DNA of 48,061 bases from the NCBI GenBank assembly GCA_903902965.1, contig CAIUXE010000016.1, forward strand, positions 1 through 48,061. The letters are read 5' to 3'. The translations under genes were made by a program, and so were the position numbers. Each line of letters starts with the position of its first letter. The first letter of the stretch is position 1. Shown here piece by piece: positions 26,287-29,736 of this stretch. Below the pieces are notes generated by a model. That model did no database searches and was not told the origin of the DNA. It saw only the letters and a program-made list of their open reading frames with translations. Source of the DNA: an uncultured Actinomycetes bacterium (GTDB taxonomy: Bacteria > Actinomycetota > Actinomycetes > Nanopelagicales > Nanopelagicaceae).

Positions 26287-26373
26287 GTCCTGTCTGGGCT
26301 ATTGAGCCATTACCAGCGGTTCGACTCGCTAGACTCCCCCCGATGCTGGCACTCACTAGCGTCAAACGTGTTG

Positions 26374-26582
26374 ATTAGGGCCATCACCCTGGGAACGTTC
26401 GGAAGATTTATCAGTAAATGGTGCAGCAGGTCAGCATCCTTTCTGATGAGGTAGAACCGGTTGAGTTAAGTGGTTTTCTGACCTGCGCGAGTGGGTTAGC
26501 GAACAAGGTGGGTGGTACCGCGCATCGCGAAAGTGAGCGTCCCTCCAGATAGATCGTGATTTAACTATCTTGGAGCTAGGAG
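26374..26582 (+). promoter_or_regulatory. ileS T-box riboswitch, translational type
   Basis: The 311 bp between the divergent dksA-like and ileS genes is mostly this leader. The conserved T-box sequence GGTGGTACCGCG lies at 26511-26522; its TGGT would pair with the 3' end (ACCA) of uncharged tRNA-Ile. A 9-bp perfect helix GCAGGTCAG / CTGACCTGC (26426-26434 / 26478-26486) and an ATTTA/TAAAT hairpin (26406-26419) give the upstream stems. CCCTCC (26540-26545) can pair with the GGAG/AGGAG ribosome-binding stretch just before ileS. No T-run terminator is present, so tRNA binding should free the ribosome site rather than prevent termination. Candidate AUC specifiers are 26410-26412 (followed by A) and 26436-26438; I cannot decide between them. 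Confidence 0.88.
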
Positions 26583-26586
26583 CTTG

Positions 26587-29500
26587 ATGAACGCGGAAAA
26601 AGGTAGATCTTCAGAGGGATCTGATTGCACGAGTTACACAGCACTGTCTGCTCAGATCGATTTACCATCAATGGAACATCAAATCCTCGATTTTTGGCGT
26701 ACCGGCAAAATTTTTGCCAAAAGCACCGCCGCTCGCGATATCCCCGGCGCTCGGGAATGGACTTTTTATGAAGGTCCTCCAACTGCAAATGGTTTACCTG
26801 GAACCCATCACATCGAAGCCCGCGTATTTAAAGATCTCTTCCCTCGTTTTCACACCATGAAAGGTGCATTTGTTCCGCGCTTTGCTGGTTGGGATTGTCA
26901 TGGATTGCCAGTCGAGCTCGCCGTTGAAAAAGAATTAGGTTTTACCGGGAAATCAGATATCGAAAAATTTGGTGTTGCCGAATTCAATGATAAATGTCGC
27001 ACATCGGTGCAACGTCACGTTGGATCTTTTGTTGAAATGACAGAACGCATGGGCTTTTGGGTTGATTTTGAAAAAGCTTATTGGACCATGTCACCCGAAT
27101 ATATAGACAGTGTTTGGTGGTCAATCAGCGAGATTTGGAAAAAAGGACTTTTAGTACAGGACCATCGCGTAGCTCCGTATTGCCCAAGGTGTGGCACCGG
27201 ATTATCCGACCATGAACTTGCACAAGGTTATGAAAACATCACAGACCCTTCTGTATTTGTTGCTTTCCCGATTACTTCCGGTCACTTAGCAGAGATTGAT
27301 GCCAAATTACTTGTCTGGACTACAACACCGTGGACCTTGGTTTCAAATACCGCAATCGCAGTCCATCCAGAAGTTAAATACCTAGTTGCAAAAACTGAAG
27401 AAAATGAAATTTATGTGGTGGCTGAGCCATTAGCTAAAATTCTTGGTGAGAATTTTCAAGTTATTGAAGAGATAACCGGAAAAGATTTAGAACATACGAA
27501 ATACCAGAGACCTTTCGACTTTGTTGAGATTCCAGACGCTCATTTTGTAGTTCTGGCCGATTATGTAACAACCGAAGATGGAACTGGCTTAGTCCATCAA
27601 TCCCCCGCATTTGGTGCCGACGACTTGATAGTTTGCCGGAAATATAATTTGCCGGTCGTAAATCCAATTGCCGGAGATGGAAAATTCCTAAGCGATATTC
27701 CAATTGTTGGCGGAATGTTTTTCAAAGATAGTGACAAAGTATTGGTCAAAGAGTTGAAAAAACTTGGAGTTCTCTACAAGCAACTTCAATATCAACACTC
27801 ATACCCACATTGCTGGCGCTGCCACACTCCATTGATGTACTACGCACAACCATCTTGGTACATCCGAACTACCGCAATCAAAGATGCATTGATGCGTGAA
27901 AACGCAAATACTGATTGGCATCCTGAAACCATCAAAAGTGGAAGATATGGCGATTGGCTAGAAAACAATATCGACTGGGCTTTATCTCGAAACCGTTATT
28001 GGGGCACTCCATTACCAATCTGGAGATGCGAAGAAGGCCACCTTGAATGTATTGGTTCTCGAAAAGAATTAAGTGCGCGAACTGGTAATGATTTAGATGA
28101 ATTAGACCCACACCGTCCTTTTGTTGATGATATTTATTTTGATTGCAAGCAGTGCGGTGGACAGATGAAACGCGTGCCTGAGGTCATCGACTGTTGGTAC
28201 GACTCAGGAGCAATGCCTTTTGCTCAATTAGGCTATCCGCACAAAGCTGGCTCTATAGAGGAGTTTGAAAAAACTTATCCCGCTGATTTCATCTGTGAAG
28301 CAATCGACCAGACTCGAGGTTGGTTCTACACAATGATGACCATAGGAACATTAGTTTTTGATAAATCCTCATACAAAACCGTGCTCTGTCTTGGACATAT
28401 TTTGGATAAAGATGGACGCAAGATGAGCAAGCATCTTGGAAACGTTTTAGAGCCAATGCCTTTGATGGATAAACATGGGGCTGACGCAGTGCGTTGGTAC
28501 ATGTTGGCCGCTGGCTCACCTTGGGCATCTCGACGCGTCGGTCATGATGCAATTTCCGACGTAGTCCGTAAAACTTTATTAACTTACTGGAATACCGTTT
28601 CTTTCCTAACTCTTTACGGAAAAGCCGCTGACTTCAAACCAACAGGATTGTTGAATTCTGAAAATACCCTTGATCGATGGATAATTTCACAACTCAATCG
28701 CACAATCGAGGAGTGCGATCGTTCCTTCACTGATTTTGATTCACAGAGCGCAGGTCGCGCTTTGGCAACATTTATTGATGAGTTATCAAATTGGTATGTC
28801 AGACGCTCTCGCCGCAGATTTTGGGATGGCGATGCTCAGGCATTGGAAACTTTGCACCATTGCATTAAATCTCTAACTTTAATTATGGCCCCAATGGTCC
28901 CATTCATCACTGAAAAAGTTTGGCAAGATGTTATTAAGGTCGTGCAGCCAGATGCAGTTGAGTCCGTTCACTTAGCTGATTGGCCGATTTTTAATGCAGA
29001 TGCAGTTGATCTTGCACTTGGAGATGCCGTTGCTGCAACTCGCAGATTAGTTGAGCTGGGTAGAGCCGCACGTGCTGAGTCTGGAGTAAAAATTCGTCAA
29101 CCTCTAGGACGTGCTCTCATCTCCGGCTTTGCCAGATTAAGTCACGAACTACAAAGTGAGATTGCCGATGAATTAAATGTCCATCGAATTGAAGATCTCT
29201 CAAGTGCAGACGGCGAACTTGTTGATTACTCGATTAAAGCAAATTTCCGAACACTCGGCACTAAATATGGTGCGAATGTGCAAGAGATTGCAACAGCTTT
29301 ATCGAAACTTAACGCCGCTGACGTTGTTGGCAAAGTGCGAAGTGGTCAAGCAGAAATTATTGGCGGAAATAATTCAAATTTCGAAGTAAATGAAGAGGAT
29401 CTAATCATTACTGAAACTCCACGCAGCGGATGGGCGGTTGCCTCTCATGATGGTGAAAGCGTTGCTCTTGATTTAACAATTACACCTGAGTTGGCGCGCG

Positions 29501-29736
29501 AAGGCGTGATTCGCGAAATCATTAGAGCTATTCAAGAGGAACGTAAAAATGCCGGCTTTGACGTCTCGGACCGGATTAAATTGATTTGGAATGGTTCGAC
29601 TGAAGTGAGTGATGCCCTAGAAGCAGGGTTAAAACTTATTTCCGAAGAAGTTCTTTCCTTGGAAGTTGAAAAGGATTCATCCTTAAAATTTGCTGATGGA
29701 GAGCTTGAACTTGGGCTGAAACTATTGCGGCTATAG
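26587..29736 (+). CDS. ileS: Isoleucyl-tRNA synthetase, type 2-like with GTHH signature
   Basis: Charges tRNA-Ile with isoleucine. 1049 residues from ATG 26587; AGGAG ends four bases before it, and TTG 26584 is unlikely. The catalytic signature that is normally HxGH reads Gly72-Thr-His-His75 in PTANGLPGTHHIEAR, a first/third position swap. The KMSKS loop is Lys612-Met-Ser-Lys615 (DGRKMSKHLGNVLEP). The CP1 editing domain is visible (LVWTTTPWTLVSNTAIAV, DGTGLVHQSPAFGADD). CPRCG and CKQCG are probable zinc sites. Overall sequence resembles long, eukaryote-like type 2 bacterial IleS, a class with reduced mupirocin sensitivity. The only plus-strand gene in the central 40 kb; it converges on yggT with a 6-bp overlap of the gene ends. 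Confidence 0.97.
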   Translation: MNAEKGRSSEGSDCTSYTALSAQIDLPSMEHQILDFWRTGKIFAKSTAARDIPGAREWTFYEGPPTANGLPGTHHIEARVFKDLFPRFHTMKGAFVPRFAGWDCHGLPVELAVEKELGFTGKSDIEKFGVAEFNDKCRTSVQRHVGSFVEMTERMGFWVDFEKAYWTMSPEYIDSVWWSISEIWKKGLLVQDHRVAPYCPRCGTGLSDHELAQGYENITDPSVFVAFPITSGHLAEIDAKLLVWTTTPWTLVSNTAIAVHPEVKYLVAKTEENEIYVVAEPLAKILGENFQVIEEITGKDLEHTKYQRPFDFVEIPDAHFVVLADYVTTEDGTGLVHQSPAFGADDLIVCRKYNLPVVNPIAGDGKFLSDIPIVGGMFFKDSDKVLVKELKKLGVLYKQLQYQHSYPHCWRCHTPLMYYAQPSWYIRTTAIKDALMRENANTDWHPETIKSGRYGDWLENNIDWALSRNRYWGTPLPIWRCEEGHLECIGSRKELSARTGNDLDELDPHRPFVDDIYFDCKQCGGQMKRVPEVIDCWYDSGAMPFAQLGYPHKAGSIEEFEKTYPADFICEAIDQTRGWFYTMMTIGTLVFDKSSYKTVLCLGHILDKDGRKMSKHLGNVLEPMPLMDKHGADAVRWYMLAAGSPWASRRVGHDAISDVVRKTLLTYWNTVSFLTLYGKAADFKPTGLLNSENTLDRWIISQLNRTIEECDRSFTDFDSQSAGRALATFIDELSNWYVRRSRRRFWDGDAQALETLHHCIKSLTLIMAPMVPFITEKVWQDVIKVVQPDAVESVHLADWPIFNADAVDLALGDAVAATRRLVELGRAARAESGVKIRQPLGRALISGFARLSHELQSEIADELNVHRIEDLSSADGELVDYSIKANFRTLGTKYGANVQEIATALSKLNAADVVGKVRSGQAEIIGGNNSNFEVNEEDLIITETPRSGWAVASHDGESVALDLTITPELAREGVIREIIRAIQEERKNAGFDVSDRIKLIWNGSTEVSDALEAGLKLISEEVLSLEVEKDSSLKFADGELELGLKLLRL

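Follow-up and report, generated by a model that had tools for sequence, protein, structure and literature searches.

The locus described here raises the question of whether an isoleucyl-tRNA synthetase (IleRS) in which the first class I signature motif reads GTHH instead of HxGH is a working housekeeping enzyme that would be insensitive to mupirocin, and whether such an enzyme is exceptional among its relatives. The window (the whole stretch of DNA that was analyzed, 48,061 nucleotides) contains the following features that bear on this question.

26362..26547, + strand: T-box leader like those of actinobacterial ileS genes; cmscan match to RF00230 with 32.4 bits and E 1.5e-5
26383..26385, + strand: probable specifier AUC (Ile) in the loop of a short stem I, followed by A; AUCA is kept in the aligned leaders
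26510..26522, + strand: T-box core GGGUGGUACCGCG; Rfam alignment, conserved in the aligned leaders
26543..26575, + strand: candidate sequestor hairpin CUCCAGAUAG...CUAUCUUGGAG; minimum-energy fold, conserved in the genus
26587..29736, + strand: ileS, type 2 isoleucyl-tRNA synthetase, 1049 amino acids; matches to TIGR00392, Pfam and 8c8w
26800..26811, + strand: GTHH signature motif, residues 72-75; read from the sequence, and aligned without gaps with HVGH/GVHH of PmIleRS2 and with GxHH in 115 rows
28420..28434, + strand: KMSKH (residues 612-616), the second signature loop of class I enzymes; alignment column

The ileS frame starts at ATG 26587, with TTG 26584 as an alternative start, and is open to 29736 with no internal stops. 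The encoded protein passes the curated IleRS model TIGR00392 (895 bits; cut-off 621.4) and contains PF00133, PF08264 and PF19302, i.e. the catalytic domain, the anticodon-binding domain and the C-terminal DUF5915. Among solved structures, it is closest to IleRS2 of Priestia megaterium (890 bits) and the Thermus thermophilus enzyme (873 bits), followed by eukaryotic cytoplasmic IleRS, whereas the type 1 enzymes score far lower (Staphylococcus aureus, 353 bits; P. megaterium IleRS1, 349 bits). The window IleRS is thus nearer to IleRS2 and the eukaryote-like enzymes than to IleRS1, and is of type 2, as originally predicted. It aligns with P. megaterium IleRS2 (8c8v, 8c9d and 8c8w) over residues 29-1030 with 882-890 bits, is similar in length and, by homology, probably also in fold; however, the wild-type P. 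megaterium enzyme has HVGH and KMSKS, while the window IleRS has GTHH and KMSKH. The acquired resistance proteins MupA and MupB are also type 2 IleRS and are similar at 812-831 bits, but the scores against their models (NF000257, 831 bits; NF000258, 812 bits) are far below the cut-off of 1900, which rules out membership in either family; moreover, in contrast to these acquired genes, the window ileS is a chromosomal housekeeping gene.

The codons at 26800-26811, ggaacccatcac (GGA ACC CAT CAC), specify Gly-Thr-His-His, which are residues 72-75 when ATG 26587 is taken as the start. In pairwise alignments that are gap-free at the motif, PTANGLPGTHH of the window is matched with PTANGLPGVHH of the engineered GVHH mutant (8c8w) and with PTANGLPHVGH of P. 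megaterium IleRS2 (8c8v and 8c9d). We also aligned the window IleRS with 126 related loci, giving 127 rows, of which 118 are distinct at the C-terminus. Because these loci were picked by similarity or motif, the motif counts are not an estimate of frequency: 115 of the 127 rows have GxHH in the signature column (GTHH 96, GAHH 7, GVHH 6, GSHH 3, GIHH 2 and GLHH 1), and the remainder are seven HYGH rows, two HIGH rows, which represent one ValRS gene of the window's own genome that is present twice, and three truncated sequences. Codons and column alignment therefore agree with the predicted swap relative to HxGH, and the check proposed for it, i.e. that residues 72-75 occupy the HIGH column, gives a gap-free match in both the solved IleRS2 structures and the 127-row alignment. 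The same alignments exclude that a different HxGH occupies the signature column. As its first residue is Gly and its third and fourth are His, the window motif has the residues (G/A, His, His) by which GxHH IleRS2 enzymes are defined.

Such enzymes were described in 2023 by Brkic et al., whose set of 163 prokaryotic IleRS2 sequences had G/AxHH in 86 cases, distributed over two distinct clades, while no IleRS1 carried it (PMC10485003). In that study, the Streptomyces griseus IleRS2, which carries G/AxHH, has a Ki for mupirocin in the mM range, a Ki of 6.6 mM was measured for the Deinococcus radiodurans IleRS2 with ALHH, and exchanging the motif in IleRS2 in either direction shifts the Ki by 10^2-10^3-fold, the higher values being those with GxHH. 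The catalytic efficiency of a natural GxHH enzyme is undiminished, while in engineered mutants kcat is reduced by up to approximately tenfold (PMC10485003). The structural account given for these effects is that the motif in IleRS2 is shifted in such a way that the third His lies beside the adenine, takes the role of the catalytic imidazole and collides with mupirocin (PMC10485003). Applied to the window IleRS, a displaced tip of helix alpha-1 would leave room for a His at the third position, this His would provide the catalytic imidazole that normally comes from the first His of HxGH, and it would clash with bound mupirocin, so that the enzyme would be expected to be active and essentially mupirocin-insensitive with a Ki in the mM range. 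Like the S. griseus and D. radiodurans enzymes, it is of type 2 with residues 1 and 3 of HxGH exchanged, and S. griseus is also an actinobacterium; unlike them, it comes from a small-genome freshwater actinobacterium and has Thr as motif residue 2, whereas the enzymes assayed in PMC10485003 have ALHH and GVHH. The statement in the original prediction that a subset of type 2 IleS with GxHH tolerates extreme mupirocin concentrations while keeping activity is borne out by this work. Based on homology, we suggest that the window IleRS is catalytically competent and hyper-resistant to mupirocin, which supports the interpretation originally given to the swapped motif.

Is the motif unusual in this part of the bacterial tree? 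Using a degenerate DNA pattern for ANGxPGxHH, we found matches in 211 of 297 sampled genomes of the class (∼70%) and in 147 of 297 genomes of the phylum, counts that are approximately lower bounds because exact patterns miss variants; the reversed control pattern gave no match in the 297 class genomes. In the window's family, each of the 28 genomes sampled matched once and only once. The canonical pattern ANGxPHxGH matched in 89 of 297 class genomes, although a few of these matches may belong to other proteins, and in none of the 28 family genomes. Relatives carrying GxHH include Streptomyces, Micromonospora, Cutibacterium, Nocardioides, Aeromicrobium and Kineosporia. GxHH predominates in the class and is shared with the type of Streptomyces enzyme that has a Ki in the mM range, and is therefore not unusual here: in the window IleRS it is genuine but ordinary and inherited, neither new nor rare, and was published in 2023. 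As a separate observation, in one large-genome family (f18; G041, G079, G095, G123, G134, G153 and relatives) both GxHH and HxGH (HLGH) match, at different places, and the second match may be a second IleRS-like gene or a gene for another class I synthetase. Two GxHH matches per genome were found in G075 (GVHH twice) and G265 (GTHH and GEHH), which may reflect duplication of ileS, contamination or matching by chance.

These distributions bear on how the motif arose. GxHH is fixed throughout the family and in most of the class across very different habitats, which suggests inheritance over local antibiotic pressure, and nothing related to antibiotics is apparent among the ORFs around ileS. We see an even chance that GxHH is a neutral or ancestral variant of the IleRS2 lineage and that mupirocin insensitivity is a by-product rather than the trait for which it was selected in these lake bacteria. 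Against this stands the conclusion that GxHH arose in IleRS2 at least twice independently, a pattern that the authors interpret as a result of selection (PMC10485003). A neutral or ancestral variant would concern the origin of the motif only and is compatible with the window IleRS being a housekeeping GxHH enzyme.

The region upstream of ileS speaks to this housekeeping role. A 2005 study described translational T-boxes in front of ileS genes of Actinobacteria (PMC1262725), and the structure of the ileS T-box of Nocardia farcinica has been solved with tRNA (PMC10651847). The window leader resembles these translational T-boxes in its location upstream of ileS, its short stem I, a probable specifier, a conserved core and a candidate hairpin that would hide the Shine-Dalgarno sequence. 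It differs from them in that its score of 32.4 bits, obtained in a permissive scan, is below the RF00230 gathering score of 93, and an Rfam scan at the gathering threshold detected no T-box; a low score would be expected, since stem I is short in the ileS T-boxes of Actinobacteria. The E value together with the core at 26510-26522 upholds the predicted T-box. From its position in the leader, AUC is probably the specifier, and UGGU of the core would pair with the ACCA 3' end of uncharged tRNA-Ile. A GGAG at 26572-26575 lies inside the hairpin and a second AGGAG at 26578-26582 just 3' of it; by comparison to the published actinobacterial ileS T-box (PMC1262725), we regard the hairpin as a candidate Shine-Dalgarno sequestor that would stand in for a terminator. 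The minimum-energy fold of the leader, which lacks the T-box architecture, was used for this hairpin only. AUC and the following A, the core and the hairpin covering GGAG are all conserved in the genus. Altogether, homology points to translational control of ileS by uncharged tRNA-Ile. Of 121 related ileS genes, 71 are preceded by the core at a comparable position, including HYGH-bearing ones, and the T-box and GxHH are therefore not coupled. Approximately 40% of the related ileS genes (L012, L015, L017-L034 and others) do not have the core GGTGGTACCGC in the 600 bases that precede the motif; these include many Nanopelagicaceae-like genomes with the same GTHH enzyme, a pattern suggesting that the leader was lost repeatedly or that its core diverged.

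Because some bacteria hold IleRS1 and IleRS2 together (PMC10485003) and the window's own assembly (1.55 Mb) is 89% complete, the window ileS could in principle be a dispensable second copy that confers resistance, beside a normal ileS at another site in the genome. We consider this very improbable. In the 89%-complete assembly, a search for class I catalytic domains found no second ileS; apart from the window ileS, a single long match was obtained, an 870-residue ValRS frame, and the remainder are weaker and shorter. Four single-contig relatives that are 99-100% complete (G005, G013, G019 and G021) have one strong IleRS match each, the next best being ValRS with ∼30% identity and the remainder at the level of ValRS or LeuRS. 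Moreover, a T-box leader suits a housekeeping gene. As far as the incomplete assembly and the complete relatives tell, ileS appears to be the sole copy in the host, in line with its description as the only visible ileS. A sequencing or assembly error, a pseudogene or an otherwise inactive enzyme can be dismissed as having a negligible probability, because the frame is open, the motif is identical in four congeneric genomes and shared by all listed family members, two separate codons would have to change, and the remaining active site, including KMSKH, is intact.

The nearest IleRS proteins (94-95% identity) are from metagenome assemblies, including Candidatus Nanopelagicaceae bacterium isolate Baikal-deep, and kinship to freshwater actinobacteria of the Nanopelagicaceae type suggests that the host is free-living. 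We conclude that the window IleRS is in all likelihood the housekeeping type 2 enzyme of a Nanopelagicaceae-like freshwater actinobacterium, with GxHH inherited in the lineage, and that it would be active and mupirocin-insensitive.

The second signature loop is KMSKH rather than KMSKS in 101 of the 112 related GxHH rows that cover both motifs, while all three HYGH rows that cover this loop have KMSKS; a lineage effect and functional coupling account alike for the present data. We tentatively speculate, at rather less than even odds, that the whole freshwater actinobacterial lineage is intrinsically hyper-resistant to mupirocin by way of its sole ileS and that GxHH and KMSKH might be co-adapted ATP-binding loops.

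Our findings leave the understanding of the IleRS enzyme itself unchanged. What they add is that the host's class normally has the swapped motif, and that freshwater actinobacteria of the Nanopelagicaceae type join the organisms for which intrinsic insensitivity to mupirocin is expected; mupirocin might therefore serve as a selective agent for enriching these hard-to-culture bacteria.
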